Assembly: GCA_029211065.1 (NCBI GenBank)
Contig: JARGFK010000041.1
Coordinates: 1 to 37,359 of the forward strand
Direction: 5' to 3'
Length of the DNA: 37,359 nucleotides
Source of the DNA: Desulfobacterales bacterium
GTDB lineage: Bacteria > Desulfobacterota > Desulfobacteria > Desulfobacterales > JARGFK01
The notes under the pieces are model-generated. The model was not told the origin of the DNA, searched no databases, and saw only the letters and a list, made by a program, of their open reading frames with translations. The position numbers and the translations under genes were made by a program. Positions 4,032-29,155 of this stretch are shown one piece after another. Numbering within the stretch: position 1 is the stretch's first letter; every line of letters begins with the position of its first letter.

Positions 4032-4111
4032 AAGATGACAAAAAGTTCGAAACCCGGAGACCTGGTTTTCTATATTTTAATATTAAACCGGCAATGAAAC
4101 AGGAGGTTTGG

Positions 4112-5329: not shown

Positions 5330-5340
5330 AAGCCTGATCC

Positions 5341-8531: not shown

Positions 8532-8599
8532 ACCCTAACGTTGCATAAACAACATTGCAAAGTGTGATTAATAATTCGATATTCTAATGAAAATTACGC

Positions 8600-8745: not shown

Positions 8746-8753
8746 GGAACGAA

Positions 8754-9824: not shown

Positions 9825-9858
9825 CGTTTAATAATCAAGCAAGGAGGAAACGGTTTTT

Positions 9859-11259: not shown

Positions 11260-11296
11260 CACCGGATATGCTATGAATGAACCCGTCGTCAGGATC

Positions 11297-11345
11297 GGCA
11301 AACAGTTCCGTCCCCATCGGAGCTGTTTGCCCCATCCATGATGGG
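11297..11345 (+). promoter_or_regulatory. Two consecutive RNA hairpins between ubiD-like and response-regulator genes
   Basis: GGCAAACAG (11297-11305) pairs perfectly with CTGTTTGCC (11323-11331) and the stem continues through TTCCG/CGGAG to about 14 bp with a 7-nt loop. It is followed at once by CCCATC-CAT-GATGGG (11331-11345). No T-run follows, so this is not a standard terminator. It may stabilise or process the operon mRNA, or lower expression of the downstream genes. Confidence 0.5.
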
Positions 11346-11374
11346 ACACAACAAATTAAAACGGAGAGGGTGCC

Positions 11375-11902: not shown

Positions 11903-11953
11903 AAACTACCCTTCTTATCAACAGGTTCTATTTCCATTAGCGGGAGGTCGACC

Positions 11954-13231: not shown

Positions 13232-13266
13232 TCTATCCCGCGCCGCCCGCAATTCCGAGGAAAAAT

Positions 13267-14604
13267 ATGTTCCCAAAATCCGATCAGTTCTGGAACCCGC
13301 TGCTGGAGACCCTGCCAAGGGAAAAACTCACCGAGCTGCAGGTCAAAAAATTCAGACGAATCCTGAAATGGGCCTTTGACAATTCCAGATTCCACCGTCA
13401 GCTCTATAAAGATGCGGGTTTGGCGCCCGAGGACATCCGCACCATGGCGGATATCGCCCGGGTGCCCAAAGTGGAAAAAAGCATGATGCGCGGCATTCAG
13501 AAAAAAGACCCTTACCCTTACGGCGACATGCTGTGTGTTCCGCTGGAGCGTGTTTCCGCGTTCCGCCAGACCAGCGGCACAACCGGCCAGCCCGTGTATC
13601 AGCCGGATACCTGGCAGGACTGGGAATGGTGGGCGGAATCCTGGGCCTATATTCTTTATGCCCAGGGCTACCGCAAATCAGACCGGGTATTTATCCCCTT
13701 CGGTTATAATATTTTTGTCGCATTTTGGGCCGGGCATTACGGCGCCGAAAAATTAGGGTGTGAAGTGGTTCCCGGCGGCGTCCTCAACACGGAAGCCCGC
13801 CTGCTCAAGATGCAGGAACTGCGGGCCACGGCCACCATGGCGACCCCCACCTATATTCTCGGCATGGCCGACGTTGCCAGAAAAAACCTGGGGCTGGACC
13901 CTGCCAAAGATCTTTGTGTCCGCAGGATTACCTGTGCCGGCGAGCCCGGCGCCAGCATCCCCGCCACAAAAAAACGGATGGAAGCGGCCTGGGGCGCCAA
14001 GGTGTATGACCACATCGGCGCAACCGAAATCGGGGCTTGGAGCTATGAGTGTGAATCCCAGCCCGGGGGGCTGCATGTCAACGAGGGTCTTTTCCTCGTT
14101 CAGATCGAAGACATCGAAACCGGTGAAATAATCGAGGCGCCGAACCGGCAGGGGAAAATGATCATCACCGCCTTTGACCGGCTGGCGCAGCCCTGCGTCC
14201 GGTTCGATTCCAAGGATATCATCATGTGGCACGACCGGCCATGTCCCTGCGGACGGACATTCCGCATGATCAAAGGAGGGGTCGTGGGCCGGGCCGATGA
14301 TATCACCAAGGTAAAGGGAGTGCTGCTCGCACCCACGGCCATCGAAGAGGTGGTGCGGGACGTTCCCCAGTTGGGGGACGAATACGAAGTCATCGTTATC
14401 AAAAAAGGCGATACCGATGACATCTCTCTCAAAGTGGAACTGCAACCGGGCGCGGACAATTTAAAAGCGGAAATTTTGCTGAAATTAAACGACCAGCTCA
14501 GGCACAAGACCGGCCTGCGGTACAATATCTCTTTTCACCCGTATGGTTCTTTGCCCCGCTATGAAACCAAGGCCAAACGGTTTAAGGATCAGCGCAAAAA
14601 GTAA
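13267..14604 (+). CDS. Phenylacetate-CoA ligase (PaaK)-like adenylate-forming enzyme
   Basis: 445 residues, standard PaaK length. The P-loop-like QTSGTTGQPVYQP starts at residue 101. The adenylation core has YDHIGATEIGAW, and the Cys-containing HDRPCPCGRTF and GRADDITKVKGVLLAPTAIEE mark the PaaK subfamily. The enzyme forms an acyl-AMP from ATP and an aromatic acid and then the CoA thioester in the cytoplasm. It comes after the UbiD gene, so it would activate the product of carboxylation, for example a hydroxy- or aminobenzoate, before benzoyl-CoA-type reduction. The exact acid is inference. AGGAAAA precedes the ATG. Confidence 0.88.
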   Translation: MFPKSDQFWNPLLETLPREKLTELQVKKFRRILKWAFDNSRFHRQLYKDAGLAPEDIRTMADIARVPKVEKSMMRGIQKKDPYPYGDMLCVPLERVSAFRQTSGTTGQPVYQPDTWQDWEWWAESWAYILYAQGYRKSDRVFIPFGYNIFVAFWAGHYGAEKLGCEVVPGGVLNTEARLLKMQELRATATMATPTYILGMADVARKNLGLDPAKDLCVRRITCAGEPGASIPATKKRMEAAWGAKVYDHIGATEIGAWSYECESQPGGLHVNEGLFLVQIEDIETGEIIEAPNRQGKMIITAFDRLAQPCVRFDSKDIIMWHDRPCPCGRTFRMIKGGVVGRADDITKVKGVLLAPTAIEEVVRDVPQLGDEYEVIVIKKGDTDDISLKVELQPGADNLKAEILLKLNDQLRHKTGLRYNISFHPYGSLPRYETKAKRFKDQRKK

Positions 14605-14624
14605 ATAATATTCGCGATGTCAGA

Positions 14625-14705
14625 TACGCCTTTTGTTTGGATCATTTGAATTTTGGTCATTAAATATTGTTTCGGATTTCGGATTTCGTGCTTCGGATTT
14701 AGAGT
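14625..14705. repeat. Interspersed AT-rich repeat (GGATTTCGGATTTCG type)
   Basis: The stretch with GGATCATTTGAATTTTGGTCATT and GGATTTCGGATTTCGTGCTTCGGATTT shows short internal repeats. Its minus-strand shadow peptide (SEARNPKSET...NDQNSND) is familiar from repeats in Desulfobacterota genomes. A related element lies at 31530-31665. Confidence 0.5.
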
Positions 14706-14825
14706 CTTTGCACTTCATACGACAGAGCCACTGAACTCTGATCTGGCCCTTTGAAAATCCCGCCATCCGGCGGGGGAGGACCAGGTTTTCTATGCTGGAA
14801 TAAATTAATCGAGGAGGAACCGGAT

Positions 14826-14996
14826 ATGGACAGTTTAGATCTTGAAACAATCAGCAAAACGATCGAACAAATCGAAACATCAGCTACGGTGCTCATTGAT
14901 AAGGCCCAGGGAATTCAGGCAATTGAACGCAATGCCGAGCGAATCCTGGCGAGCGTAAAAATGCTCCAGATCAATGTCAGCGACCTTCTTTCCTGA
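14826..14996 (+). CDS. Small acidic protein of unknown function (56 aa)
   Basis: A 56-residue ORF from the ATG at 14826, preceded by an excellent GAGGAGGAACCGGAT ribosome-binding site. The sequence (MDSLDLETISKTIEQIETSA and onward to VKMLQINVSDLLS) has heptad-like hydrophobic spacing and no Cys, so it is probably a short helical, perhaps coiled-coil, protein. It lies at the end of the CoA-ligase operon, about 220 bp after the ligase, behind an interspersed repeat. I do not recognise the family. The strong RBS is the main support that it is translated. Confidence 0.6.
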   Translation: MDSLDLETISKTIEQIETSATVLIDKAQGIQAIERNAERILASVKMLQINVSDLLS

Positions 14997-15323
14997 TATC
15001 TCCTGCCGGACCGCTCCCATAGAAAATCGGTCTCCCCCTTGAACCGCAATCGCGAGCGCATTCCCCGCAGCAGCTCGATTTGTCTTCGACTCTGAGCTCA
15101 GACCGAAGGGAGCTCGTCGACAAGTCTTGTTGGAGCGAAGCGGAGATCCCGTTTTGCATGGCTACGGATTAACTTTCAAATATTTTCGGCAAAATATCAA
15201 CAATGGGCAGGGATAAAAAGCAATTGCGGCCTTGACTTTTAAGTCCCACTGCTGACATACATTTAAGTGACGGACGGCTGGAACATCATACCGTTCGGCC
15301 TCAACTGACCGGGAATTTCAGGC
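14997..15323. repeat. Intergenic region with a palindromic repeat
   Basis: A 327-bp gap with no gene. CTTCGACTCTGAGCTCAGACCGAAG (15084-15108, read in two halves) is a near-perfect palindrome. It is nested between TTGTC (15080-15084) and GACAAG (15118-15123), a form typical of REP-like interspersed elements. A short dyad GACTT-TT-AAGTC lies near 15234. Nothing else was recognised. Confidence 0.45.
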
Positions 15324-16130
15324 ATGTCCAGATTCAAGAATACCATGGAAATCTTCCTGCTGCTCGACAAGTCCAATTGCCGGGACTGCCATCTGCCCAC
15401 CTGCCTGGCTTTTGCCGCCGCTGTTTTCAAGGGACAAAAGCAGTTAAATGAGTGCCCCCGCCTGCCCCGTGATATCATTGAACGGTTCGGCGCCGGAATA
15501 ACGCCCCCCGACGGTGTCGCGGCGGAAGGCGACGTTCAGACAAAACAACTGCAGGAAAAAATCGGTTCCATCGACTTGGCTGCTGCAGCCAAGCGTCTGG
15601 GGGCTCGGTTCAGCGACAACAAATTGACCCTCAAGGTTCTCGGTAAAGATTTCAGTGTGGATGCAAAAGGAAACCTTTCTTCGGATATTCACATCCACTC
15701 ATGGGTGGCCATCCCGGCGCTGAGCCATATCCTCGAGGGCAGCGGGATTTCACCTTCCGGAAAATGGGTCCCTTTCAGAGAATTGAAAAACGGCCGGACA
15801 TGGCAGCGGCTGTTTGCCCAGCGCTGCGAGAAACCCATTAAACGGGTAGCGGACATTTATCCGGATCTTTTTGAGGATATCGTCCGTATCTTTAACGGCC
15901 GCCCGGTGGAAAACCATTACGATGCCGACATTGCCCTGGTCCTGCACCCCCTGCCGAAGGTGCCGATCCTGATCAGTTACACCAAACCGGAAGACGGATT
16001 CGAATCCGACCTTAATATGTTCTTTGACGCCACGGCAGAGAAAAACCTCAACATTGAATCCATCTTCGCACTGGGAACCGGGCTGGCGCGGATGTTTGAA
16101 AAGATTGCTTTTCGGCATGGGTTTCGATAA
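15324..16130 (+). CDS. DUF3786 protein with N-terminal Fe-S domain
   Basis: 268 residues. Near the N-terminus the pattern C-x2-C-x4-C-x16-C (NCRDCHLPTCLAF ... NECPRL, about residues 13-40) matches the small putative Fe-S domain also found in corrinoid Fe-S and RnfB-type proteins. The remainder resembles DUF3786 proteins of anaerobes, with HIHSWVAIPALSHIL and FFDATAEKNLNIESIFALG. It is likely cytoplasmic, binds a 4Fe-4S cluster, and may deliver electrons or help a corrinoid or reductive enzyme. It is followed by a ferredoxin-like gene. No clear Shine-Dalgarno is seen at this ATG. Function beyond Fe-S binding is not known. Confidence 0.78.
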   Translation: MSRFKNTMEIFLLLDKSNCRDCHLPTCLAFAAAVFKGQKQLNECPRLPRDIIERFGAGITPPDGVAAEGDVQTKQLQEKIGSIDLAAAAKRLGARFSDNKLTLKVLGKDFSVDAKGNLSSDIHIHSWVAIPALSHILEGSGISPSGKWVPFRELKNGRTWQRLFAQRCEKPIKRVADIYPDLFEDIVRIFNGRPVENHYDADIALVLHPLPKVPILISYTKPEDGFESDLNMFFDATAEKNLNIESIFALGTGLARMFEKIAFRHGFR

Positions 16131-16252
16131 TTGAGCAGAGTATGAGGATTAAAGCTCTCAGGGGAACCTGATTAAATTCTTTCCAAATCTTTTTATATTA
16201 AACATCAAAACAGCTACTCATCAGATTTCATGCAAGCTTCAGGAGGAAACTT

Positions 16253-17092
16253 ATGACGGCAACTGTTTACAAACAGATGCTTGAAGTTATGACAAAACGA
16301 GGAGGCCCCTATGCCGGTATGGATGTTCCCGAGTTCTATGCGCTGGTGGAGGCGTTGTTCACACCCCGGCAGGCTGAAATCAACAATGTCCTGACCCGCA
16401 AGCCCGCCACGGCCGCTGACATTGCCGGCCGGATTCAGAAGGACGAAGCCCAAATTAACGCCGGCAACACGATTCACACCTATGATCAGGTCCAGACCTA
16501 CATCGATAAGTATGATACCATTTGCGTGGGGACCTGTTTCTGCCGTCAGGCAGCCCGCTTAAGGGGCGAAAGCGTTCACGACATGCCCATGGAAGTCTGT
16601 TTCTGGTTCGGCAAGGCCGGTGAATTCGCGCTTGAAAGGCTGGGCGGACGCAGGCTGACCCGTCAGGAAGCCAGAAATCTTCTGTATGAAACCGAAGCGG
16701 CCGGACTGATTCACATGAGCCGCAATACCGCCGAGGAAATCGACTTTTTGTGCAATTGCGACCGCTGGCACTGCGAGGTCGTCACCGAGATTCTTAAACA
16801 GCCCCGGCCTGCGCTGGTCTTTAATTCGGGCTTTGGGCCGGTTGTTGATCCCGAACGTTGCGTGGCCTGCGAAACCTGCATCGGTCGCTGCCCCCCCGCA
16901 GCCTTGAAAATGGGCGACCAGAACGCACCGGTGGTGGATATGGATCGCTGCTTCGGCTGCGCGGTATGCGCTTCCGGCTGCCCCCAGGATGCCATTCTTA
17001 TGGAGGCAAGGCCCGGCTGGCAAGCGCCGCCCGGGAGCGTAAAAGACCTGGTGACGGCCCTGAAAAAGAACGCAGCCGCCAGACAGGACTGA
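16253..17092 (+). CDS. Ferredoxin-like protein with 2x[4Fe-4S] and extra cysteine clusters
   Basis: 279 residues. The C-terminal part has two full 4Fe-4S motifs, CVACETCIGRCPP (about residue 203) and CFGCAVCASGCPQ (about 233). The N-terminal part looks like a winged-helix domain (EINNVLTRKPATAADIAGRI). The centre has additional cysteines: TCFCRQ, EVCFWFGK and LCNCDRWHC, which could bind another cluster or metal. AGGAGG lies before the ATG and the next gene starts 13 bp downstream. It is probably a cytoplasmic electron-transfer or redox-sensing protein paired with the dehydrogenase that follows or with the DUF3786 protein. The Fe-S assignment is firm; the partner is inferred. Confidence 0.85.
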   Translation: MTATVYKQMLEVMTKRGGPYAGMDVPEFYALVEALFTPRQAEINNVLTRKPATAADIAGRIQKDEAQINAGNTIHTYDQVQTYIDKYDTICVGTCFCRQAARLRGESVHDMPMEVCFWFGKAGEFALERLGGRRLTRQEARNLLYETEAAGLIHMSRNTAEEIDFLCNCDRWHCEVVTEILKQPRPALVFNSGFGPVVDPERCVACETCIGRCPPAALKMGDQNAPVVDMDRCFGCAVCASGCPQDAILMEARPGWQAPPGSVKDLVTALKKNAAARQD

Positions 17093-17105
17093 AAAGGAGG
17101 GTCAA

Positions 17106-18056
17106 ATGAGACTGGCAATTTTAGACGATATAGAAGACGTTGCCTTGAAGCTGGCGGACTGGGACAGTCTCGGACCCCAAATCAAAATCGATGTTTTCCG
17201 GGACAATATCAAGGAAGAAACGGCCCTGGCAAAGCGCCTGCTGCCATACGACATCCTGGTGATCATGCGCGAACGCACCCGTTTTCCCCGCAGCCTGATC
17301 GAAAAACTCACCCACCTGAAACTGCTGGTGACCACAGGGGCCAGAAACCTGGCTATTGATATGGCCGCCTGCCAGGAAAGCGGCATTACGGTTTGCGGCA
17401 CCGCGTCATCCAAAACAGCGCCGGCTGAACTGGCCTGGGCCCTGATCCTGTCCTGCCTGCGAAAAATCCCGCAATTGGATCGTACGGTTCGCGACGGCCG
17501 CTGGGGAGATGGGATCGGATCCGGTCTGGCAAGCAAAACCCTGGGCGTATTGGGCTTAGGCAAACTGGGAATTCAGGTCACGCGTGTGGCACTGGCCTTC
17601 GGCATGAACGTCATCGCCTGGAGCCAAAACCTGACGCCGGAGAAGGCTGAAGCAGCCGGCGCATGTTGGGTGGAAAAGGATGAATTTTTTTCCGCCGCAG
17701 ACATCATCACGATTCACCTGGTCTTAAGCGACCGCACCCGGGGTCTGGTAGGCGCCCGTGAACTCGGGCTGATGAAGCCCAGCGCCTATCTCATCAACAC
17801 ATCCCGCGGTCCCATCGTCGATGAGGAGGCTCTGATCGCCGCCCTCACGGAAAACCGCATCGCCGGCGCAGGACTCGATGTTTTCGAGACCGAACCGCTC
17901 CCCCCGGATCACCCCTTTTTGCGTCTGCCCAACACCGTGATGACACCGCATGTGGGATATGTCTGCAGAGAGGGCTTTCAAATCTATTTCCGTCATGCCA
18001 AGGAAGATGTGGCCGCCTGGCTGGCCGGAAAACCGGTCCGGATGTTGCAGCCTTGA
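17106..18056 (+). CDS. D-2-hydroxyacid dehydrogenase, NAD-dependent
   Basis: 316 residues, full length for the D-isomer-specific 2-hydroxyacid dehydrogenase family. The Rossmann motif GVLGLGKLGIQ lies near residue 146. The catalytic set is visible: Arg234 in NTSRGPIVDEEAL, Glu261 in FETEPLP, His282 in TPHVGYV. It interconverts a 2-keto acid and a D-2-hydroxy acid with NAD(P)H. AGGAGG lies before the ATG, 13 bp after the ferredoxin-like gene, so the two are co-transcribed. The substrate may be glycerate-, phosphoglycerate- or branched-type; sequence alone does not tell. Confidence 0.9.
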   Translation: MRLAILDDIEDVALKLADWDSLGPQIKIDVFRDNIKEETALAKRLLPYDILVIMRERTRFPRSLIEKLTHLKLLVTTGARNLAIDMAACQESGITVCGTASSKTAPAELAWALILSCLRKIPQLDRTVRDGRWGDGIGSGLASKTLGVLGLGKLGIQVTRVALAFGMNVIAWSQNLTPEKAEAAGACWVEKDEFFSAADIITIHLVLSDRTRGLVGARELGLMKPSAYLINTSRGPIVDEEALIAALTENRIAGAGLDVFETEPLPPDHPFLRLPNTVMTPHVGYVCREGFQIYFRHAKEDVAAWLAGKPVRMLQP

Positions 18057-18192
18057 AAGCTGCAGGCTGCCTCGCCGGCAGTCCAAATGACATGATCGAT
18101 AAAAACCGCTGAGTTTTATTGACTGTTTCGATAGATTCCATTAAAAATTAAAAGAAATTAATTGAATTATTCCTAAACCAGACAGGATCACC

Positions 18193-21054
18193 ATGCCCAA
18201 AAAACCGCCCCAAGAGGTTTTAGAGAAACAGCGCGATGACGCATCTCCCGTCAACCGGCAAACAGAGTCGGCACTGCGGGAAAGCGAAAAAAGACTTGCC
18301 CAGATTGTTCAGGGGCTTTCCATCCCAGCGTTTGTTATCGATCAGAACCATATCGTCACCCACTGCAACCGCGCCCTGGAGAGTCTCACCGGCATATCAG
18401 CCAACGTGCTGGTGGGAACCACGGATCAGTGGAAAACATTTTATACGCAAAAACGCCCCACCCTGGCCGACCTCATCGTCGATGGGGTTTCCGAGGATAC
18501 CATTGCCGGACACTATCCCGGCATATATAGCCGCTCCGCCCTGATCGAAGGCGCCTATGAAGTGGAAAATTTTTTTCCCCGTGTCGGCGGCGAGGGCAAA
18601 TGGCTTTTTTTTACAGCCGCTCCCCTGATGGACGACAGCGGCAGGATCACCGGCGCCATTGAAACCCTTCAGGATATCACGGACCGCAAACGCGCCGAGC
18701 AGGAACTGCGCCGGACCGAAAGACGGCTGCGGGCCCTGCTGGATTTTGCACCCTATCCCATAGTGGTTTTCACCCTGGACGGCTGTGTCTCCTACCTGAA
18801 CCCGGCATTCAGTGAAACCTTCGGCTGGACCCTGCCCGAACTGGAAGGAAAGCGGATTCCCTATATACCCCCGGAGCTTGTCAAAACGACCCGGGAAGAC
18901 ATCAAGCGGCTTCTCCAGGAGCGGGTCTTAACCGGTTATAAAAGCCAGCGCCTGACCAAAGACGGACGGCTGCTGGATGTCGTCCTGCGCGCCGCCACCT
19001 TTTCCGAAACTGAAAATGAAACCGCCGGCATTATTGTCATTCTAAGGGATGTCACCCAGGAAAATAGAATGACCCGCAGCAATGAAGCCATGCTCAGCAT
19101 CAGCATGGCGCTGCCGGAATATCCGGACCTGCAGGAGCTTCTCTACTATGTCAACTGCGAAGTCAAACGCCTGCTCTCCACCGAAGGCGCCATCGCCGTT
19201 CTTTACGATGAGATCAAGGGAGACCTCTTCATGCTGGGGCCCGCCTATGATGACATGGCCACCGAAAGGCGGGTGCAGGAAGTCCGCTTCCCCATTGACA
19301 AGCTTGTATCCGGACAAGTGATTCGGTCCGGCGAGCCGGTGATCATTTCCGACACCTCCATCAATCGGCATCTTCACGAGGAAAGGGATCAAAAGTTCGG
19401 CTACAGGACCCGCAACCTGGTGGTCGTGCCGCTCAAAAGCAGTGAACGCACCATCGGCACCTTATGCGCCATCAACAAGAAGGAGGGCGGTTTTGACGAG
19501 TCCGACGTGGCGCTGCTCAGCCTGATTGCCGGAACCGTGGCCCTTTCCATTGAGAATGCCCGCTTTTCGGAGGATTTAAAGAAAGCACTGCGATTCACCG
19601 AAGCCCTATTAAGAATCAGCGTGGCCCTGCCCATGCACCCCGAACTGGACGACCGCCTCAATTATGTCAACAGCGAAATCAAGCGGCTCCTAAATTCCGA
19701 AGGAGCCATGGTTATTTTGCTGGATGAAGAAAAAAAAGAACTCTTTGCCATCGGCGCCGCCTTTGACGCCATTGATACCGAGGAAAGGGTCGAAAAATAT
19801 CGATTCGGCATCGATGAGCTCGAAGCCGGCACTGTCATTCGGAACGGCGAACCGGTCATCATTAACGATACCTCCATCAATCGGCACCTTCACGAAGAAA
19901 GGGACAAGAAGTTCGGCTACAAGACCCGCAACCTGGTGCTGGTTCCCCTGCGGGGGCGGGAGCGAATTGTCGGCGTTCTTTGTGCCATTAACAAAAAATC
20001 GGGGGGCTTCGGCAAATCGGACGTGGAGCTGCTCAGCTCGATTTCAGGCACCGTCGCCCTCTCCATCAAGAACGCCAGGGTTACCGAAGAGCTTAAAAAA
20101 GCCTATAGCGAAGTAACGGGTTTGAACCGGGCAAAGGACAAGGTCATCAACCATTTATCCCATGAGCTCAAAACGCCCGTAGCCATCATCACCAGTTCCT
20201 TGGGTCTCCTGGTCAAAAAAATAAGCGACATCCCCCAGCCTGTCTGGAAACCCACCGTCGACAGGGTCAAGCGTAACCTGAACCGCATCCTCGACATCCA
20301 GTATGAACTGGACGACATCATGCAGGGCAGGGAACCCAAGGCTTACGGCCTGCTGGTGCTCCTGTTGGAACAATGCGCAGACGAACTGGAAAGCCTGATT
20401 GCAGAAAATGCCGGAGAGGGCGAACTGGTGGGGCTCGTGCGCAAACGCATCGACGAACTTTTCGGGCCGGCGGTTGCAGTTTCGAAGAACATCGACCCGG
20501 GTCAAACTTTGCTGAACCGGCTGGAAGCTTTAAAACCCCGTTTTTCAGAACGCCGGATCGACATTATCCACCGGATTGAACCCGTCCCCCGGATACTTCT
20601 TCCCCCGGATGTCGTCCAGAAGGTGCTGGACGGTCTGCTCCGGAATGCCATCGAAAACACACCGGATGAAGGCAAGATCGAAGTGGATGTTTACAAGGGT
20701 GGGGAGGGAGCGGTACTGAGGGTCCATGATTATGGTGTCGGCATCACCGCGGAAGCGCAAAAGCGGATCTTCGAAGGATTTTTCACATCCCGGGATATTT
20801 CATCCTACTCAACCCGCAACCCTTTTGAATTCAATGCCGGCGGCAAAGGTGCGGACCTGCTGCGCATGAAAATTTTTTCCGAGCGGTATCATTTTCAAAT
20901 CGAAATGCGCTCAACCCGATGCAAATATATCCCCAGGGAGCGGGATCTTTGCCCCGGCCGGATCAGCAGCTGCAGTTTCTGCAGCCAAGCCGAAGATTGC
21001 CACCGTTCCGGAGAAACGACGTTTCTGGTTAACTTTCCGGCCGCAACCGGATAG
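18193..21054 (+). CDS. PAS-PAS-GAF-GAF sensor histidine kinase with Cys-rich C-terminus
   Basis: 953 residues, no TM segment, so cytoplasmic. Order: PAS about 28-165, PAS about 178-295, GAF about 297-456, GAF about 470-629, HisKA with His657 in NHLSHELKTP, HATPase about 800-950 (NAIENTPDEG, HDYGVGI). The two GAF domains are near-copies, sharing DTSINRHLHEERD and FGYRTRNLV/FGYKTRNLV, so an internal tandem duplication occurred. The ATPase end carries five cysteines (C-x9-C-x6-C-x2-C-x5-C) in place of the usual terminus. No linked full response regulator follows; the stand-alone receiver at 11375 is a possible partner. The ligand is unknown; a redox or aromatic signal is inference. Confidence 0.9.
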   Translation: MPKKPPQEVLEKQRDDASPVNRQTESALRESEKRLAQIVQGLSIPAFVIDQNHIVTHCNRALESLTGISANVLVGTTDQWKTFYTQKRPTLADLIVDGVSEDTIAGHYPGIYSRSALIEGAYEVENFFPRVGGEGKWLFFTAAPLMDDSGRITGAIETLQDITDRKRAEQELRRTERRLRALLDFAPYPIVVFTLDGCVSYLNPAFSETFGWTLPELEGKRIPYIPPELVKTTREDIKRLLQERVLTGYKSQRLTKDGRLLDVVLRAATFSETENETAGIIVILRDVTQENRMTRSNEAMLSISMALPEYPDLQELLYYVNCEVKRLLSTEGAIAVLYDEIKGDLFMLGPAYDDMATERRVQEVRFPIDKLVSGQVIRSGEPVIISDTSINRHLHEERDQKFGYRTRNLVVVPLKSSERTIGTLCAINKKEGGFDESDVALLSLIAGTVALSIENARFSEDLKKALRFTEALLRISVALPMHPELDDRLNYVNSEIKRLLNSEGAMVILLDEEKKELFAIGAAFDAIDTEERVEKYRFGIDELEAGTVIRNGEPVIINDTSINRHLHEERDKKFGYKTRNLVLVPLRGRERIVGVLCAINKKSGGFGKSDVELLSSISGTVALSIKNARVTEELKKAYSEVTGLNRAKDKVINHLSHELKTPVAIITSSLGLLVKKISDIPQPVWKPTVDRVKRNLNRILDIQYELDDIMQGREPKAYGLLVLLLEQCADELESLIAENAGEGELVGLVRKRIDELFGPAVAVSKNIDPGQTLLNRLEALKPRFSERRIDIIHRIEPVPRILLPPDVVQKVLDGLLRNAIENTPDEGKIEVDVYKGGEGAVLRVHDYGVGITAEAQKRIFEGFFTSRDISSYSTRNPFEFNAGGKGADLLRMKIFSERYHFQIEMRSTRCKYIPRERDLCPGRISSCSFCSQAEDCHRSGETTFLVNFPAATG

Positions 21055-21062
21055 GAATGATC

Positions 21063-21548
21063 ATGATTGAAAAAATTATCTCCGGCGGACAAACCGGAGC
21101 CGACCGGGCCGCGCTGGACGCCGCCATTGAAATCGACATTCCCCACGGCGGCTGGGTGCCCAAGGGCCGGCTGGCCGAAGACGGAGCGGTTCCGCTTCTT
21201 TATCATTTAAGCGAAATGCCCACCGACAGTTATGCCGTTCGAACGGAACAAAATGTTGTGGATTCCGACGGCACGCTGATCCTTTCCCACGGACCGCTGT
21301 CCGGTGGTTCCGCCCTGACACAGGATCTGGCGGAAAAGCATGAGCGGTTTTGCCTGCATATCGATTTAAACCGGATCCCGACCTTTAAGGCTGCCGCCAT
21401 GATTGCCGCCTGGATTGCGCTGCATCATATCAAAACATTGAATGTGGCCGGTCCGCGCGCCAGCAGCGACCCGGATATATACCAAAAAATAAAAAGCATC
21501 CTGATCGCAGCTTTCCATAAAGAAAGGAGAAAAAACAATGGCGTTTGA
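21063..21548 (+). CDS. Putative molybdenum-cofactor carrier-like protein
   Basis: 161 residues from the ATG at 21063, chosen over the ATG at 21057 because AGGA is then 6 nt upstream. The sequence begins IEKIISGGQTGADRAALDAA and continues with HGGWVPKGRLAEDG, the hallmark of the MoCo-carrier family and related Rossmann-like nucleotide-binding (LOG/DprA-like) folds. GTLILSHGPLSGGS and NVAGPRASSDPDIY complete the fold. Family members are proposed to bind Moco or nucleotides, with weak experimental support. Its stop overlaps the selenoprotein start by 11 nt, so the two are translationally coupled, which argues for a shared job. Confidence 0.75.
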   Translation: MIEKIISGGQTGADRAALDAAIEIDIPHGGWVPKGRLAEDGAVPLLYHLSEMPTDSYAVRTEQNVVDSDGTLILSHGPLSGGSALTQDLAEKHERFCLHIDLNRIPTFKAAAMIAAWIALHHIKTLNVAGPRASSDPDIYQKIKSILIAAFHKERRKNNGV

Positions 21549-22344
21549 TCTGAACACCTTTAAAGCCGCTTATGAAAAATGGGTTACGGAAAGCCTGCCG
21601 GACTTCCGTGCCCGCAAAATGGATGAGATCGTTAAAAAGTATCCTTTTGTAATATCCGATGACGTTCCCTGGACCCCTTACAGCGGAAAGCCGGCGGAAC
21701 AGACCTTTGCCCTGGTTACCAGCGGCGGGCTCTACCTCAAGGACAGCCAGCCCCCTTTTGATACCGAATCGATCCACGGAGACCCCTCCTATCGAGAAAT
21801 TCCCAGGACCGTTCAGCAGGAAGACCTTGGCTTTTCCCACGCCCATTATGACCATAGCCTGGCGGAACAGGACTTTAACACCATCTTCCCCATCCAGCGG
21901 TTCATAGAGCTGGAAAAGGAAGGCATCATCGGCAAACTGGCCCGGTCACATTACAGTTTCAGCTATGTCAACGACGTTGCGCCGTTGGTTACAAAGGCTG
22001 TTCCGGAGCTCATCGGCCGGATCCGAGCGGCCGGCGTGGATGTGCTGTTCCTGGTGCCGGTCTGACCGAAATGCCATCAGACCGTGGGTCTGATTCAGCG
22101 TCAGGTCGAAGCGGCCGGAATTCCCACCATATCCATAGGCAATATGGCCGACCGCATGGGCCACATCAAACCTCCCCGCGCCCTGCTGGTGAAGTTTCCC
22201 CGGGGCAGCATGCTCGGCGAGCCGGGCAACGTCGGGCGCCAGCGCCGCGTCATTCTGGATGCCCTTAACGCACTGAACGTAATGACTGAACCCGGCACCG
22301 TAGAGGAACTGCCCTATCGCTGGAAGAAGCCGGACCCGGAGTAA
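21538..22344 (+). CDS. GrdB-like (glycine/sarcosine/betaine/D-proline reductase family) selenoprotein, in-frame UGA
   Basis: Reading through TGA at 22063-22065 gives 268 residues ending in TAA. The frame before (LVTSGGLYLKDSQPPFD, GDPSYREIP, SHAHYDHS) and after (CHQTVGLIQRQVEAAG, PTISIGNMADRM, FPRGSMLGEPG) is one continuous family protein. The UGA is residue 176 in VPV-U-PKCHQ, where family members carry Sec or Cys in a U/C-x2-C redox motif. A hairpin with an 8-bp stem starts 10 nt after the UGA. The frame between is not disturbed. AAAGGAG precedes the ATG. Role: reductive cleavage of an amine or related substrate, or a paralogous thiol redox step. It is shorter than GrdB itself, so the exact substrate is open. 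Confidence 0.9.
22063..22094 (+). promoter_or_regulatory. UGA-Sec codon with bacterial SECIS-like hairpin
   Basis: TGA at 22063-22065 is followed by ATCAGACC (22076-22083) and GGTCTGAT (22087-22094), an exact 8-bp inverted repeat with a GTG loop at 22084-22086. The loop lies 18-21 nt after the UGA and carries G residues, within the range known for bacterial SECIS elements. Confidence 0.82.
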
Positions 22345-22355
22345 CGGAAGAGAAC

Positions 22356-22946
22356 ATGAAATTCACCCCTTGTTTACGATCCATTAGGGGCACCATCATG
22401 GCTGTATGCCTGCTGGCCGCATTCGTACCCCAGGCCCAGGCGGAACCCAATGAAAGTGCAAACTTTCTCATCAATGATTCCGTATCGTTGCTGGACTTTG
22501 GCATCTACAAACTCGAAAATGAACTCAAGGGGTTTCGAAACGATCTCACCATCCGGTTCCAGCCCCCCCATTCGTCCTTTGTGGATTACGACTGGGATGA
22601 AAATAAAATCACAATCGTGCTTTCTTATGGAGATCCCGGAAACCCTCCCGTCAAAGAAATAAAAAATGAGATAATATCCGTGGTTGCAGCCTTGAAAAAA
22701 TATTTCGGCGTCGGCCCGACGGGTGAACCCTTTCAAAAGGGGGGATTCAGCCGTGTGGGAGATCATTTCTCCCACAGGGGCTATACCAAAAAAAATATGC
22801 CGCAAAACCTGAAGCGTGAGATAGACAACATGGTCGAAATTAAAATTATATTTTACGTTCAAAACTACAGCCGCTACTTTGAATGCCGCAACCGGCTGGT
22901 GGGTAACAGCAGTGAAAAAATCACCTGCACGGATTATCTTCCGTGA
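22356..22946 (+). CDS. Secreted hypothetical protein
   Basis: 196 residues with a clear signal peptide: MKFTPCLRSIRG, then the hydrophobic core TIMAVCLLAAFVPQ and a probable cleavage after AQAEP, near residue 29. The mature part has no motif I know; it is charged, with a Tyr/Asp-rich region (FVDYDWDENKITIVL) and a Cys pair near the C-terminus. It begins 12 bp after the selenoprotein stop with a GGAAGAG ribosome-binding site and may be co-transcribed. Its location would be periplasmic. No function is proposed. Confidence 0.7.
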   Translation: MKFTPCLRSIRGTIMAVCLLAAFVPQAQAEPNESANFLINDSVSLLDFGIYKLENELKGFRNDLTIRFQPPHSSFVDYDWDENKITIVLSYGDPGNPPVKEIKNEIISVVAALKKYFGVGPTGEPFQKGGFSRVGDHFSHRGYTKKNMPQNLKREIDNMVEIKIIFYVQNYSRYFECRNRLVGNSSEKITCTDYLP

Positions 22947-22997
22947 ATGTTGATTGAAGCAGGTGCCGGCGATAATTTATTGTGAAAGGAAATAGGG

Positions 22998-23381
22998 ATG
23001 ACATCGGGGGAAAAAGGACCGGAAAACGGCGACAGGAATCGGATCGTTGCCGAGGCCCTGCGCAACCGCGAAAAATGGGAGCAGACTTATCGGGCCAGAG
23101 CACTCAAGCTCTTTGCCCCGGTCTGCGGCCGCTGCGGGCGTGATTTCAGCGGCAAAAGACTGCGGGAACTGACCGTCCATCACAGGGACCATAATCATGA
23201 CAACAATCCGCCGGACGGCAGCAACTGGGAGCTGCTGTGCCGGTATTGTCATGACAATGAACATTCGCGTTATGAGGACGCTCAATATGATATTGGGCAC
23301 ACACCTGAACCGGATCAGGGGCCGGGTCTTGCCCACCGGCCCTTTGCGAACCTTGCAGACCTTTTAAAAAATAAAAAGTAG
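22998..23381 (+). CDS. yajD: YajD-type HNH endonuclease-fold protein
   Basis: 127 residues. The zinc-binding and HNH core is complete: CGRCGRDFSGKRLRELTVHH, then DHNHDNNPPDGSNWE and LLCRYCHDNEHSRYED, so two CxxC knuckles flank the H-N-H residues. The layout and tail match E. coli YajD-like proteins, which are predicted nucleases of unknown biological role. AAAGGA precedes the ATG. The 3' end overlaps the end of the convergent tctB gene by 18 bp. Confidence 0.85.
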   Translation: MTSGEKGPENGDRNRIVAEALRNREKWEQTYRARALKLFAPVCGRCGRDFSGKRLRELTVHHRDHNHDNNPPDGSNWELLCRYCHDNEHSRYEDAQYDIGHTPEPDQGPGLAHRPFANLADLLKNKK

Positions 23382-23852
23382 GCTGAAAACCCAGCCTTCC
23401 CGGAAGGGTACATTCAAAAGCCAGACAAAGAGGCCGTAAAAACTCGCCCAGGCGACTGCGGACAGTCCGATGGATAGTTTCCAGCTCTCCTTTCCATAGA
23501 TTTTAAAAAAAGAAAGGAAAAAAATCGGAATTGCAATGGGAAATCCGACCAGGAGTATCAAAACGAAGAATCCGAAAATCCAACCGAATATTCGCAGGGT
23601 CCGGAATAAAGCGGTCCGGCTGTCGCCATCGCCGTCCGACAGCTTAAAATCAAACCCGGCCGCATCTCCAACCCCTTCTCCCTTGCCTGTCAGGTTTATC
23701 AAAAATTCCGTTAGTGCCATTAAAAAAACCGGCACACCGATGGCAACGGGGAACAGTGCCGTTTTAAACGGCCATCCGGCGGCGGTGATGACAACCGCCA
23801 GTGAAATCCCTGCAACAAAGAGGCCCATAGCTGCGCCGCCATTAAATTTCAT
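23364..23852 (-). CDS. tctB: TctB-family small membrane subunit of a tripartite tricarboxylate transporter
   Basis: 162 residues from the ATG at 23852. This start is chosen because it overlaps the end of tctA by 11 bp with GGGAGA upstream, although the frame stays open further. The protein has four hydrophobic segments (GLFVAGISLAVVITAAG, ALFPVAIGVPVFLMALTEFL, IFGFFVLILLVGFPIAIPIF and a C-terminal one), as expected for TctB. It is the small 4-TM partner of TctA in the inner membrane. It is the last gene of the operon and ends inside the convergent HNH gene. Confidence 0.85.
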   Translation of the reverse strand: MKFNGGAAMGLFVAGISLAVVITAAGWPFKTALFPVAIGVPVFLMALTEFLINLTGKGEGVGDAAGFDFKLSDGDGDSRTALFRTLRIFGWIFGFFVLILLVGFPIAIPIFFLSFFKIYGKESWKLSIGLSAVAWASFYGLFVWLLNVPFREGWVFSLLFIF

Positions 23853-25356
23853 CGGACGATTCTCCCTTCTGCAGTCTTTTGCGTTGAATAAACGGATAAA
23901 CCGCCACCGCCACCGCCAGCAGGAATATAACAATCACCTTGGGTCGATACAGCCAGTCCCAGCCGTATCGGGACGTGGAAACATACAGATAGGTCTCGGC
24001 CAGTTCGCCCAGGATAAAGCCCAGGATAAAAGGCGGGCGCGGCCAGTTGAACCGCACCATGAAATACCCCACGCATCCGAACGATAGGACCGTAATCAGA
24101 TCGCCGATATGATTGGTTGAGGTATAGGCCCCGATAAATGTCAGCAGGAGTATGAACGGGATCAGCAGTTTGCCCCGGATCGTGGTCAGCGCCGCAATGT
24201 GGTTGATGAAAAGAAAGCTCACCAGGACGATGATAATGTTGGCCACCACAATCGTCCATACCATGGAAAACGTCAAGGTCAGGTGCTTGGTCAGCATTTC
24301 CGGGCCGGGCACCAGCCCGAGGAGAAAAAAGGCCCCCAGCAGAATCGCCATGCCGCTGCTGGCGGGAATGCCGAAGGCGACCGTGGGAATCAGGCCGGCG
24401 CCTTCCTTGGAATTATTGGCCGCACCCGGTCCCAGGACGCCCCGTATATCCCCCTGGCCGAAGCCTTCCTGTTCTTCCACCGTTTTGGCGCTCTGGGTGG
24501 CATGGGCATAGGACATCCACTGGGCCACCCCGCCCCCCAGTCCCGGCAGAATACCGATCAACGAACCGACCAGACTGCACCGGACGGTGAGCCAGAAGTG
24601 CGTGAACGTATCCCGAACCCCCTGCATCACCCCCTTGCCGAGCTTGCCCGAAGGCACATCTCCCGCAATGGCGGTTCCCCGGACCGCAAGGTCGACGATT
24701 TCCGGAACGGCAAAAAGACCGACCAGGACCGGGATAACCGGCAGCCCGTTCCACAGATAAAGCGAGTCGAACGTAAACCGCAGGATGCCGGCCTGGCGGT
24801 CCTGGCCCACCAGCGAGCACAGCAGCCCGATGCCGCCGCTCAGGAGCCCTAGCAGAAGCCCCCGGCGGTCCTGGCCGCTCAAGGAAGAGATACAGGTCAA
24901 CCCCAGCAGAATGACCATCAGCATCTCCGGCGATCCGAACGCCAGGACCAGGGGCCGCACAATCGGGATGGAGATGGCCAAGAACATGGCGCCGAATACC
25001 GCCCCGATCAGGGAGCTCATGAGGGCGGCGCCGATGGCCCGTCCGGCCTCTCCTTTTTTCGCCATGGGATAGCCGTCCACGATGGTGGCCACCGTGGTGG
25101 CCTCCCCGGGAATGCCGAAAAGAATCGACGTAATATCCCCCGTCGTCTGGACAACCGAATGCATCCCCAAGAGAAAGGGGAGCGCTTCCTGGGGGGTCAT
25201 TTTATAAATAAACGGCATCATCAGGGCCAGTGTCGTCGCCCCCCCTAATCCTGGCAGAATCCCTACCCAAAATCCGATTCCCGCGCCGAGGAGCAGATAC
25301 AGAAATGATTTCCATTGGAAAACCAGTATCAGGCCGCCTACAAAAGCATCAAGCAT
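23842..25356 (-). CDS. tctA: TctA-family large membrane subunit of a tripartite tricarboxylate transporter
   Basis: 504 residues, standard TctA length with about 11-12 TM segments. The family motif GILPGLGGATTLALMMPF lies near residue 32 and is repeated in inverted-repeat form as GILPGLGGGVAQWMSYAHA. GVFGPGAANNS-type residues (GVLGPGAANNSKEG) are also present. It carries the Na+- or H+-coupled translocation of carboxylates delivered by TctC. GGAG lies before the ATG and 49 bp separate it from tctC. The transported compound could be an aromatic or other carboxylate; sequence does not say. Confidence 0.95.
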   Translation of the reverse strand: MLDAFVGGLILVFQWKSFLYLLLGAGIGFWVGILPGLGGATTLALMMPFIYKMTPQEALPFLLGMHSVVQTTGDITSILFGIPGEATTVATIVDGYPMAKKGEAGRAIGAALMSSLIGAVFGAMFLAISIPIVRPLVLAFGSPEMLMVILLGLTCISSLSGQDRRGLLLGLLSGGIGLLCSLVGQDRQAGILRFTFDSLYLWNGLPVIPVLVGLFAVPEIVDLAVRGTAIAGDVPSGKLGKGVMQGVRDTFTHFWLTVRCSLVGSLIGILPGLGGGVAQWMSYAHATQSAKTVEEQEGFGQGDIRGVLGPGAANNSKEGAGLIPTVAFGIPASSGMAILLGAFFLLGLVPGPEMLTKHLTLTFSMVWTIVVANIIIVLVSFLFINHIAALTTIRGKLLIPFILLLTFIGAYTSTNHIGDLITVLSFGCVGYFMVRFNWPRPPFILGFILGELAETYLYVSTSRYGWDWLYRPKVIVIFLLAVAVAVYPFIQRKRLQKGESSDEI

Positions 25357-25405
25357 AGCTGCGCTCCATTATCAGAGTAAGCTTCGAGTTCTTTGGGATA
25401 TTCTT

Positions 25406-26413
25406 TTAGAACTGTACGAATTTCTTAAATTCGTTAACCATATCCTCCGGCTGATTGAGAATAAAGTTAATCACTTTCAGGCATTCTTCGGCCGGGACAT
25501 AGGTGATTTTCATTTTGTTTTTTTCGGCATCCTTCTGAAGCTCCGGATCTTTTTCCACCTTTGCAAAGGCTTCCCGCAAAATATTCATCACATTTTCCGG
25601 GGTCCCCGGCGGCGCCACATAGGGCCGCCCGAAACGATCGGGCGCAGAGCGCATCATCAAAAGCGTTTTTGCTTTCGGATCCGTCACCAGGTCTTCATCC
25701 ACCGGCAAATTTTCGATCCCTTCCTCGGCAATACGGCCTCGCAATACCGGACGCACCACGCCCCTATCAATAAATGGAAGCGCGGAACTGTAAGAAGAAC
25801 CTCTGCCGTCGAGTTCCTTGCGCTCCACCGCCAGCATCACATCCGCGCTGGAAGGATAACTGATATTTTTCAGGTCCATGCCCAGAAACGCCTGCAGCAT
25901 GCTGAGCAGATGGCCGTTGCTGTCGCCGGGGCCGGTGGAGCCCAGCATCTTTACCGATTTGTCCTTAAGCATCTCATCAAAGGTCTTGTAGGGAAGGTCT
26001 GTCCGTATGACCAATACGGTGGCTTCCACCGCAGAAGACCCGATCCAGGCATATTTACGCATATCGAACTTGGCGCCTTTTTTTGCGGTGAGCTGGGCAA
26101 AGGGCAGACCGCGGTTAAAGGTGCCGATGGTCAATCCGTCCGGTTTGGCAATGTTGTAAATGTAATTGGCGGTAATCATACTGGAAGCCCCCGGCATGTT
26201 TTCGATGATGAAGGTGGGCTTTCCGGGAATATACTTCGGAAGGTGTTTTGCCAGCAGCCGGGCCATCCGATCATACCCCCCGCCGGGTGCAAACCCGACT
26301 ACAATTTTAATCTTCTTGCCCTCATAATAGGGTGCCGCCTGTGACCGATCGACCGAAAATAAAACCGTTGCAAGACAGAAGACAACAAGCAAAAAAATAG
26401 TACTTTTCTTCAT
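25406..26413 (-). CDS. tctC: TctC/Bug-family periplasmic substrate-binding protein
   Basis: 335 residues. A typical signal peptide (MKKSTIFLLVVFCLATVLFS, cleavage after SQA) leads to the Bug fold, with YYEGKKIKIVVGFAPGGGYD and MPGASSMITANYIY near the start. This is the high-affinity extracytoplasmic binding protein of the tripartite transporter. An AAAGGAGGAACATC ribosome-binding site directly precedes the ATG. It is the first gene of a tctC-tctA-tctB operon. Bug ligands are usually carboxylates such as citrate, amino acids or phthalate-like aromatics; the ligand here is unknown. Confidence 0.95.
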   Translation of the reverse strand: MKKSTIFLLVVFCLATVLFSVDRSQAAPYYEGKKIKIVVGFAPGGGYDRMARLLAKHLPKYIPGKPTFIIENMPGASSMITANYIYNIAKPDGLTIGTFNRGLPFAQLTAKKGAKFDMRKYAWIGSSAVEATVLVIRTDLPYKTFDEMLKDKSVKMLGSTGPGDSNGHLLSMLQAFLGMDLKNISYPSSADVMLAVERKELDGRGSSYSSALPFIDRGVVRPVLRGRIAEEGIENLPVDEDLVTDPKAKTLLMMRSAPDRFGRPYVAPPGTPENVMNILREAFAKVEKDPELQKDAEKNKMKITYVPAEECLKVINFILNQPEDMVNEFKKFVQF

Positions 26414-26914
26414 GATGTTCCTCCTTTGGGGTCTTTTAAAACAAGTTCCGACATTGATTCACAAACGAATCTTGTTATTTAAACCGTGTGGCTCCAATAG
26501 GGTTGCCTCAACCCTCCTTTGGCAATTTTAAATGGATGCCTGGACACGGATTTGTTCGTCCCAACAGATGGCCAATACAAAAACACAAAGAAAAGCGAGC
26601 GTTTAAATTTTGCTGTACGAAAAAGAGGTGTTAAATGATTGTTTCAATATGTGACCAGTTATTATCTGGTTAAAAAGAAAGATTTGAGATTACATGATGT
26701 TCTGGTTTAATTATAACAAATACATAAATTGTCAACAGTTTTTAGCCCCCCGGCAATGTCAAATTAAATTGCTTTGACTACGGAATAAGGATAACATCGC
26801 CCTGGATGGAACTCCGCATTGACATGTACGGCCATCCCATATCAAACGGCTGCTCCGGATCGATTTGTGCATTAATATACGGAGAAACAAGCCGGGTACA
26901 AAAGGATTTTTCAT
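26414..26914. promoter_or_regulatory. Divergent control region between the tct operon and the MFS-HEAT gene
   Basis: A 501-bp AT-rich gap with no gene. It holds a perfect hairpin AGGGTTG-CCT-CAACCCT at 26499-26515 with no T-run on either strand. A weak minus-strand promoter candidate is TTGACA (26730-26735) with TAATTA (26708-26713) 16 bp away, about 300 bp before tctC, implying a long leader. No riboswitch was recognised. Confidence 0.35.
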
Positions 26915-29104
26915 GTGAATGAAGCTAAATCTTCTGATTTATCGCTTACGCTGAATCAACGCGCGTTAGGAAAACGGTTCTATTACCTCTACGCCTTTTT
27001 CAATTCCTTTTCCTGGGCGGCACTGGCCGAAGGGGTGGTCATCCTCTTATTGCTGCGCCTGGGCGCCACCGAAACATGGGTGGGAATTGTTACCTCCCTG
27101 CAGTATGTGACCCTGCCGGCAATGGTGCTGGGATATACCACGGTATCCCGGCTCGGCGTAACCGGAACAGCCGGCCTGTTCTGGGGAATCCGCAGCTGCT
27201 CGGCCGCCCTGATGATCATCGCCCCCTGGACGCTCCGGTTTGGTGCGAACATACCCCTGTGGTTCATGTTTTTTGGTTCGCTGGGCTTTATGCTGGGCCG
27301 GGCCGCGGGTCTGATATCCTTTACCGGCATTATTACCGAGTTGACGACCACGCGTGACCGCGGCGAGCTGATATCGAATTCATCCAGGATCTCCCAGTTC
27401 GGATCAATCCTGATGACCCTTGGAATGGCCCTCTTTTTAGGAACAGCTGCTCCGCTCCACCGCTACCAGATCCTTTTGGCTTTTGGCATGCTGTGTGGTT
27501 TAATCGGCGCCGGCGCACTCTTCAAAGTGCCGGAATCCGGTATCTTTCGCACAAAAACGCCGTTAAAGCTTTGGGAAGAGCTCCGGTGGAGCCTGGCGAC
27601 CCGGGGCCGTAAATGGTTCATGGTGATGATGCTGGTAATCCCCATCACCCAAGGGGTCACTTATGCTTTCGGCATCTTGATCGCCAAGCAGGGATACGGT
27701 CTCAGCGACCAGACCGTCGTGTTTTTTGTCCTGGTTGCCACCGTTGGGGGCATTGTAGCATCTTATACCTACCGCCTTTTTCTGGACCAGCTCGGCTCGC
27801 GTCCCCTGTTGGTGATTACCAGTTTTTTGGACATTGCCGGCGTTGCCCTGGTCATTCTGCTGCCGAAAACATTTACGGCGGTCCTCATCGGCGTCCTTTT
27901 TTTTGTCAACGGCTATGTCCATATCGCCTTTAACGCCGCCATGCAGCATTATTTTATCAGTATCACCACCCATGCCCATCAGCTCGCCCATGGAATCATC
28001 ACCCGGGCTCTCGGGGGTCTGGTGGGAGGGTTGGCGCTGATCTTAGGGGGGTGGCTGCTGGAAAAGCTGAAACTGTCCGCTTCCCTTCCCATTGATCCGC
28101 TGCAGCATTTTCGCTGGTTCTACGGCGGATTGCTCCTGCTGTTGATCTTTCGCACGGTGGTGTTCTTTAAGCTGCCGCGGCTGAAATCCCAGGGCATCCG
28201 CGATGCCCTCAGCGCCCTCTTCTCTCCATGGGACTGGCGCGCCATACACGCGGTTAAACGCGCCATCAGCGTGCAGAGTGAAGATGAAGAAACCAAGGCC
28301 CTGTCGGCCCTGATGCACACCGATTCACGCATCTATCAGGCCGATCTGGAGCATTATTTAGATTCACCCAGCATTTTTATCCGGCAACGCGCCATGGATG
28401 CCTTACAGCGTGCCAAACCCACACGATCCCTTATTAAAGCGCTTCAAAGAGATTTACAGGTCAATCAATTTACCACGGCCCATCAGGCGGCCTACCGGCT
28501 GGGTCACTGAAAAGTGGTTGAAGCCGTGCCGCTGCTGATCCGGGCAATTGACAGCGAGGACTTTCTGCTAAGCGGCGCAGCTATTTATGCCTTGGTTGAG
28601 CTGGATGAGCGCAGCCCGTTTGCCTTGATCGAAAAAAAATTCTTTGAATCCGAAAATCCCTATGTTCTCATCGAAGCCGCCCGGGCAATCTCACTCTGGG
28701 GAAATCCCCGCCATTACGACCTGCTGCTCCATAAGTACCTGCTCAATATCCCGCCCCAGGCCAAAGACGAGCTGTCGCTGTCGGTAGCCCTCCTGCTGGG
28801 CTTATACGATGCGTTTTACTTTGATCTGGGGATGCTGCACCGCGAGCCCGCCCCCTTGTATCGTGAATGGCTGGAACGCTTCGGCGCCAGGGATAAGGAA
28901 GGACTGATCACAGCCATTCGCGAGGGGGATGCCAAACAGAGCCTCCTGCTAGGCGCCCTGCAGCGGCAGCAAATGCGTTATCAGCCATGGTTCTACGAAC
29001 CCACTGCCGGTTTTCTTGAAAAGTTGCCGGAAATCGTCCCCCAGGAAGAGGCTTTTCTAGTGGCGTTTCTGCTGCTCACACCCAATGGATTTCATCTCAA
29101 TTGA
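26915..29104 (+). pseudogene. MFS transporter with C-terminal HEAT-type repeats, interrupted by in-frame TGA
   Basis: The GTG at 26915 (AAGGA upstream) opens a 531-residue MFS half with about 12 TM segments and a following helical, HEAT-like region. A TGA at 28508-28510 stops the frame, but codons 533 to 729 continue in the same frame without a break to the TGA ending at 29104. The protein across the stop reads AAYRLGH-stop-KVVEAVPLLIRAIDSED, a continuous HEAT repeat. A CGA-to-TGA change would explain it. There is no Cys/redox context and no strong downstream hairpin, so selenocysteine is unlikely. It may be a truncated functional transporter with a dead tail, two products (GTG at 28514), or a sequencing error. 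Confidence 0.7.
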
Positions 29105-29155
29105 AACCTGTACGGAAATCAGGTAGGCTGACACGATCATTTTCATGGAGACAGT

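Follow-up and report, generated by a model that had tools for sequence, protein, structure and literature searches.

Gene organization at the locus

The window analyzed here, a stretch of 37,359 nucleotides, belongs to a Desulfobacterales genome of 4.94 Mb in 269 contigs (completeness 100, contamination 4.29). A candidate gene for a PrdB/GrdB-like selenoprotein, recognized by Pfam and NCBIfam models and by its relatives, occupies positions 21538-22344 of the forward strand (+). The sole interruption of this frame is one TGA at 22063-22065 (+), and reading that codon as selenocysteine (Sec) gives a 268-residue product with the sequence VPV-U-PKCHQ. Sec would be residue 176 and part of a UxxC motif, U176-P-K-C179, an assignment that draws on the conservation of the TGA and on relatives with cysteine. 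Under translation table 11 the frame splits into ORFs of 175 amino acids (21538-22065) and 86 amino acids (22084-22344). The first-pass annotation of this DNA had proposed one continuous protein, split by a UGA in a U-x2-C motif, that automated calling would divide in two, and the present analysis bears this out in each respect. Standard gene calling divides genes of this type at the active site. The sequence AAGGAG (21524-21529, +), 8 nt upstream of the ATG at 21538, resembles a ribosome-binding site and may act as one.

The start of the selenoprotein gene is overlapped by 11 nt by a cpYpsA gene (PF12694, 21057-21548, +; Pfam 198.5 bits). The ORF that ends 2 nt before the cpYpsA gene (18193-21054, +) reads in translation like a sensor histidine kinase and possibly shares its transcript. 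Eleven nucleotides after the selenoprotein stop codon, a further ORF (22356-22946, +) encodes 196 amino acids for which no Pfam match was found. Elsewhere in the window, genes for UPF0261 proteins, a PEP-utiliser-domain protein, and UbiD-family and AMP-binding-family proteins are clustered at 2808-14604, a set that we take to recall an aromatic or phenol carboxylation cluster.

Conservation of the in-frame TGA

A pattern scan of genome contigs recovered 15 relatives at 64-76% identity, 14 of which cover the whole, or nearly the whole, length. In all 14, codon 176 is TGA and PKCHQTVGLIQ comes next. The match to the remaining relative (L041, in genome G357) stops at residue 170, and because it breaks off there, this locus was omitted from the alignments, shuffles and tree. 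Together with the window gene and one further locus (L085), the 14 relatives make up a set of 16 distinct full-length clade members. One of the relatives (L028, 75% identity) lies in a metagenome-assembled genome labelled Chloroflexi, reflecting either transfer or mis-binning.

A search of a phylum sample of 297 genomes yielded 84 matches, spread over 64 genomes, the source genome among them. A TGA is contained in 82 of these matches, and the other two do not extend to residue 176. The motif around the TGA was inspected in the fetched loci of this sample (L002, L003 and L042-L070); two of them, L067 and L069, are PrdB-like TGA frames with U-P-L-D, in which the UxxC cysteine is replaced by Asp. 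A search of 76 genomes, comprising the source genome and others of its order and overlapping the phylum sample, gave matches in 24. Three matches of this search are free of stops: that in G357 ends before residue 176, that in G353 is a fragment past residue 176, and that in G306 has Cys at residue 176. The broken clade copy in G357 (L041/L098, contig C46) matches to residue 170 only, and the G353 fragment (L097, G353:C1:1344574-1344798) comprises residues 194-266, its genome carrying a full-length copy as well.

An alignment with cysteine homologues at residue 176 had been suggested as a check, and such homologues are present in three distant relatives (L071, L081 and L096, hosted by Roseomonas, Haematobacter and G306). 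Homologues that end before residue 176, or that carry neither Sec nor Cys there, would speak against the assignment; this was not the pattern found.

If the TGA were a true stop, the gene would be a pseudogene or would encode a 175-residue product. Broken copies such as those in G357 and G353 do exist, and table 11 does return two ORFs. Against this stand the presence of TGA at the same codon in 16/16 distinct full-length clade members found, the 91 columns that are invariant across 15 clade proteins, with 35 of these columns lying after residue 176, the cysteine in three relatives, and a hairpin that is kept beyond what the codons require, as described below. A true stop is thus highly improbable. 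On these comparisons, the apparent stop codon at 22063-22065 very probably encodes selenocysteine in one whole redox protein.

A SECIS-like hairpin downstream of the UGA

The first-pass annotation had also described an 8-bp perfect stem with a G-containing loop 10 nt past the UGA, and this was found exactly, at 22076-22094 (+). Positions 22076-22083 form eight uninterrupted Watson-Crick pairs with 22087-22094, enclosing the loop GUG at 22084-22086, and the first stem base lies 10 nt after the UGA. The bacterial SECIS (bSECIS) model, in the part of the publication available, specifies a loop of 3-9 nt, a stem of 4-16 bp, a G within the first two loop positions, a distance of 16-37 nt from UGA to loop and an energy limit of MFE <= -7.5 (PMC13188914). 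The window hairpin satisfies every constraint of the model as given there, which addresses the suggested bacterial SECIS check, with a UGA-to-loop distance of 18 nt and an MFE of -9.7 for the hairpin alone and -20.8 for the 54 nt from the UGA. The Rfam collection, searched at the gathering threshold, gave no match anywhere in the window.

The rarity of such a hairpin was assessed over all TGAs of the window, 1,245 when both strands are counted. Just one of them, the TGA at 22063, is followed by a perfect Watson-Crick stem of at least 8 bp under the bSECIS rules. When G-U pairs were permitted, 57 of the 1,245 satisfied the rules with a stem of at least 8 bp; the distinctive property is therefore the perfect Watson-Crick pairing. 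When the comparison was restricted to the 49 TGAs preceded by 50 or more open codons and followed by 40 or more, the TGA at 22063 was again the only one with a Watson-Crick stem of at least 7 bp.

Conservation of the hairpin was evaluated by recoding each gene synonymously with its own codon usage. The 16-member clade set used for this shuffle included L085 and excluded L042, whose DNA is identical to that of L032 and which was counted in the 45 pooled rows described below and in the tree. All eight pairs are present in 13/16 members and at least seven in 16/16, against a null for 8/8 pairs with a mean of 0.45 and a maximum of 3 in 5,000 recoding runs; because the members are related by descent, their counts in the shuffle cannot be treated as independent. 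The three members that keep seven pairs (L035, L036 and L038) have lost the pair adjoining the loop. In the wider family of 29 rows, from which L003 is absent, 20 have 8/8 pairs (null mean 1.0, maximum 6, in 2,000 runs). For the window gene alone, 8/8 pairs arose in 2.2% of null runs.

Paired changes were tabulated in 45 pooled rows, one of them a duplicate, with positions numbered from the U of the UGA. Pair 15-31 is T-A in 35 rows, C-G in nine and C-A in one; pair 19-27 is A-T in 17, T-A in 23 and T-G in five; and pair 18-28 is G-C in 43 and A-T in two. Fisher tests on pairs 15-31 and 19-27 gave 1e-8 and 9e-13, values that are not true probabilities, since the rows are related. Taken together, the alignments indicate that the hairpin is kept across the clade beyond codon requirements.

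In the cysteine genes, the corresponding stem positions pair at 5/8 (Roseomonas), 4/8 (Haematobacter) and 5/8 (G306). The TGA-bearing gene at L003 pairs 6/8, and three TGA-bearing true PrdB genes (L072, L079 and L080) pair 5/8, 4/8 and 4/8 at these positions. Pair counts this low are thus possible in TGA-bearing as well as in Cys genes, and any hairpin in these three PrdB genes is differently placed.

Selenocysteine machinery of the genome

The source genome has one selB gene over the cut-off (392 bits), one selA gene over the cut-off (610 bits), a tRNA-Sec (77 bits) with the anticodon TCA (UCA), and three selD genes above the cut-off. The proposed search for selA, selB, selC and selD therefore found all of them, and the absence of selB or selC that would have counted against the selenoprotein reading is not observed. 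Each of the selD genes (L021-L023 of the source genome, G000; C7:48811-49737, C26:15131-16048 and C37:30071-30988) itself has an in-frame TGA. The presence of three selD copies could be genuine or, given the contamination value of 4.29, could point to a mixed bin.

The same genes bear on the notion that a changed genetic code reads UGA as Trp or another ordinary residue. No point in its support was found; the genome has tRNA-Sec(UCA) together with the sel genes, the relatives have Cys rather than Trp at the position, and TGA terminates other ORFs of the window (for example 11954-13231, 16253-17092 and 22356-22946). A changed code is barely credible here.

Family assignment and phylogeny

The protein passes the Pfam GRDB model (PF07355) with 34.2 bits against a cut-off of 22, a match confined to model positions 202-341 of 347. 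It scores 137.1 bits with the NCBIfam PrdB model (TIGR04483), failing the equivalog cut-off of 300, whereas the PrdB of Acetoanaerobium reaches 421 bits. The GrdB equivalog (TIGR01917; model positions 196-429 of 431) gives 53.7 bits and fails its cut-off of 602; the four GrdB-type models score 43-57 bits, all below their cut-offs, and the NCBIfam B-family model 57 bits. An assignment to the GrdB family, as initially made, is thus not sustained: the nearest named family is PrdB, and neither cut-off is passed. Judged by these scores, the window protein does not qualify as a true GrdB or a true PrdB.

In a tree of 51 rows, the window protein falls in its own clade of 16 rows (15 distinct), which has support of 100/100 and a stem length of 1.19 changes per column and is separate from the three PrdB rows. 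The tree contains no GrdB, its deepest forks are weak (65/54) and its bootstrap had not settled; for the input, L003 was trimmed to residues 1-280 and L063 to the C-terminal 300. The clade has HxHYDH at residues 101-106, where PrdB and GrdB rows have HGGYD (HGGYDN in the three PrdB rows); H103 of this motif is Gln in L085. In the group residue table, compiled without L003, L055 and L063, His80 and His138 occur in 16/16 clade rows.

Two further PrdB-like TGA frames are present in the source genome. One (L002, L083; G000:C142:7488-8195) carries U-A-I-C-N-Q and belongs to another branch of the tree; the other (L003, L084; G000:C28:471-1694) is 408 amino acids long and carries U-P-L-C. About 2.5 kb beyond L003, at C28:3467, lies a TGA frame with a UxxC motif (GRW-U-PYC) that by eye resembles a peroxiredoxin.

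A phage origin of the gene was rejected, a single phage record matching at 23% identity. A plasmid origin was likewise rejected; the 25 plasmid records are mostly Firmicutes PrdB, and the remainder are two alphaproteobacterial stand-alone genes and one weak Photobacterium match.

Predicted structure

An AlphaFold2 model with Cys in place of Sec has a mean pLDDT of 83.4 and a pTM of 0.87. The Sec176/Cys179 loop is predicted to lie between a strand (169-174) and a helix (180-192), and block 171-180 has a mean confidence of 78. Confidence is low for the stretch 101-120, which holds the HxHYDH motif (block means 55 and 61). A sequence search of solved structures gave no convincing relative for the protein P0001, the alignment A1 or the PrdB of L072, and Foldseek found no solved structure at E <=0.001 (best E 1.7e-3, TM 0.27). 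The best VIA-align match, a LacI-type fold (Z 8.1, rmsd 3.9, 146 residues), is taken as reflecting the common alpha/beta arrangement only.

Conservation of the gene neighbourhood

The overlapping gene had been described as MoCo-carrier-like and the overlap read as a sign of a different reductase system. The 11-nt overlap stands; the label does not, as the current family name is cpYpsA (PF12694), 'MoCo carrier' being an older name of that family. Searches with tblastn matched cpYpsA at 0/46 related loci and at 0/14 further related loci; several flanks extend only ~0.4-1.5 kb, so that the comparison covers close linkage, and some loci repeat (L042 equals L032, L086 resembles L039, and L087 and L098 resemble L041). 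No conserved neighbour was found among 16 loci and window positions 12001-30000, the families common to those loci being the gene itself, those of the duplicate genome (L032, L042) and scattered enzymes. Functional coupling to cpYpsA as a general rule was accordingly rejected within the reach of these flanks. The overlap is local, and with cpYpsA not found at the related loci and no conserved neighbour seen, it cannot be used to deduce a reductase system.

A two-gene system of selenoprotein and cpYpsA peculiar to this lineage would be consistent with the overlap and with the placement of the ribosome-binding-site-like AAGGAG inside the upstream gene. The 0/46 and 0/14 counts, tempered by short flanks and repeated loci, argue against it, and we regard such a system as very unlikely.

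Reductase partners

The D-proline and glycine reductases have a proprotein partner, PrdA or GrdE (PF09338), and the reductase gene sets examined fit this partnership. In the source draft of 269 contigs, no match to PF09338 (GrdE/PrdA) or to GrdA (PF04723) was found, in agreement with the initial remark that the gene is not accompanied by the usual grdA/grdE/prd set; the searches covered these two families, and a draft of this fragmentation could hide a partner gene. A control record from Acetoanaerobium returned five PF09338 matches and one PF04723 match, and a 633-residue frame near its prdB, taken as PrdA, scored 84 bits. The case for a different reductase system therefore rests on the missing PrdA, GrdE and GrdA and not on the coupling to cpYpsA.

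With a threshold of E 0.001, PF09338 was detected in 12 of the 297 genomes of the phylum sample, some of which are fragmented. It is absent from 58 of the 64 genomes with a PrdB-like relative, the source genome included; the six that have both are G026, G033, G226, G241, G258 and G296. Lack of a partner is thus frequent in the phylum sample, at that threshold and with the genomes partly fragmented.

These results weigh on the possibility that the protein is a genuine D-proline reductase subunit (PrdB) whose PrdA is encoded elsewhere, belongs to a different family or dropped out during assembly. PrdB is the best named family, and the accessible parts of earlier surveys class marine pfam07355 UxxC sequences (PMC2398784) and selenoproteins of Anaeromyxobacter and Geobacter (PMC1794560) as proline reductase. 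The score of 137 bits where the cut-off demands 300, with Acetoanaerobium PrdB at 421, the HxHYDH of the clade against the HGGYDN of the three PrdB rows, the lack of PF09338 in the source draft and in most genomes with relatives, and the lack of prd-type neighbours among the 16 loci and window positions 12001-30000 all point the other way, making a genuine PrdB very unlikely.

Proposed function

The observations are best explained by a clade-specific selenoprotein of the PrdB/GrdB superfamily that acquires Sec176 through SelB and acts, free-standing and partnerless, as a reductase or thiol/selenol oxidoreductase, a reading to which we assign a probability of roughly 0.86. By analogy with the known bacterial mechanism, from which this step is taken, its genes and the hairpin being present, SelB carrying Sec-tRNA(UCA) would bind the hairpin at 22076-22094 and decode the UGA at 22063 as Sec176. 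As the UxxC motif and the predicted fold suggest, Sec176 and Cys179 would alternate between the selenol/thiol and selenenyl sulfide states. Because no partner of the PrdA/GrdE type was found, this chemistry would proceed independently of a pyruvoyl partner, and a free-standing reductase or thiol/selenol oxidoreductase is the most likely role. The protein's own substrate site, as modelled, would include the clade-conserved H80, H101, Y104, D105, H106 and H138; direct binding of substrate by the conserved histidines may be envisaged, part of the site lying in the low-confidence stretch 101-120. Our preferred guess for the substrate is a small organic or thiol-type compound other than D-proline or glycine.

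Proteins of this kind are already known from surveys. Those parts of the marine metagenome reports that were available list 235 (PMC2398784) and 42 (PMC1088965) PrdB sequences as UxxC selenoproteins, and 'proline reductase' selenoproteins are recorded, in the accessible part of that source, in Anaeromyxobacter and Geobacter (PMC1794560). Among the literature titles and abstract openings covered, none announces this clade or its lack of a partner, and these two points are the addition made here.

A broader proposal, tentative and given somewhat less than even odds, is that pyruvoyl-less PrdB-like selenoproteins constitute a large free-standing class in anaerobic deltaproteobacteria whose own histidines bind the substrate and for which the label 'proline reductase' is mostly wrong; on the same tentative footing, the window clade would be one branch of that class. 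If this is true, the survey label is wrong for most pyruvoyl-less PrdB-like sequences. Provided that these are real enzymes, PrdB by itself may lead to a mis-assignment of D-proline reductase in deltaproteobacteria of seas and sediments, and an unassigned selenium-dependent reaction would be testable in Desulfofustis glycolicus DSM 9705, whose gene (locus L033) is 70% identical to that of the window.

Comparison with known systems

With PrdB (TIGR04483), the window protein shares homology over residues 42-263, Sec in a UxxC motif and a similar length (the PrdB at L072 has 242 residues). It differs in its 137-bit score, below the cut-off of 300, in having HxHYDH for HGGYDN, in its separate clade and in a predicted N-terminal helix (residues 5-24), and its genome has no match to PF09338 (PrdA). 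With GrdB, GrdF and GrdH (PF07355), it shares the Pfam GRDB match at model positions 202-341 and the UxxC motif. In contrast to GrdB, it has nothing that corresponds to the first half of that protein, and its genome has no GrdE or GrdA match. The third comparison is with two stand-alone alphaproteobacterial proteins annotated as 'glycine/sarcosine/betaine reductase selenoprotein B family protein' (WP_207415257.1 and WP_035710215.1), for which no prd or grd genes are annotated within flanks of 5 kb and 3 kb. These share the C/UxxC-HQ motif with the window protein and differ from it in sequence (30-32% identity), in having Cys for Sec, and in pairing 5 and 4 of the 8 hairpin positions.
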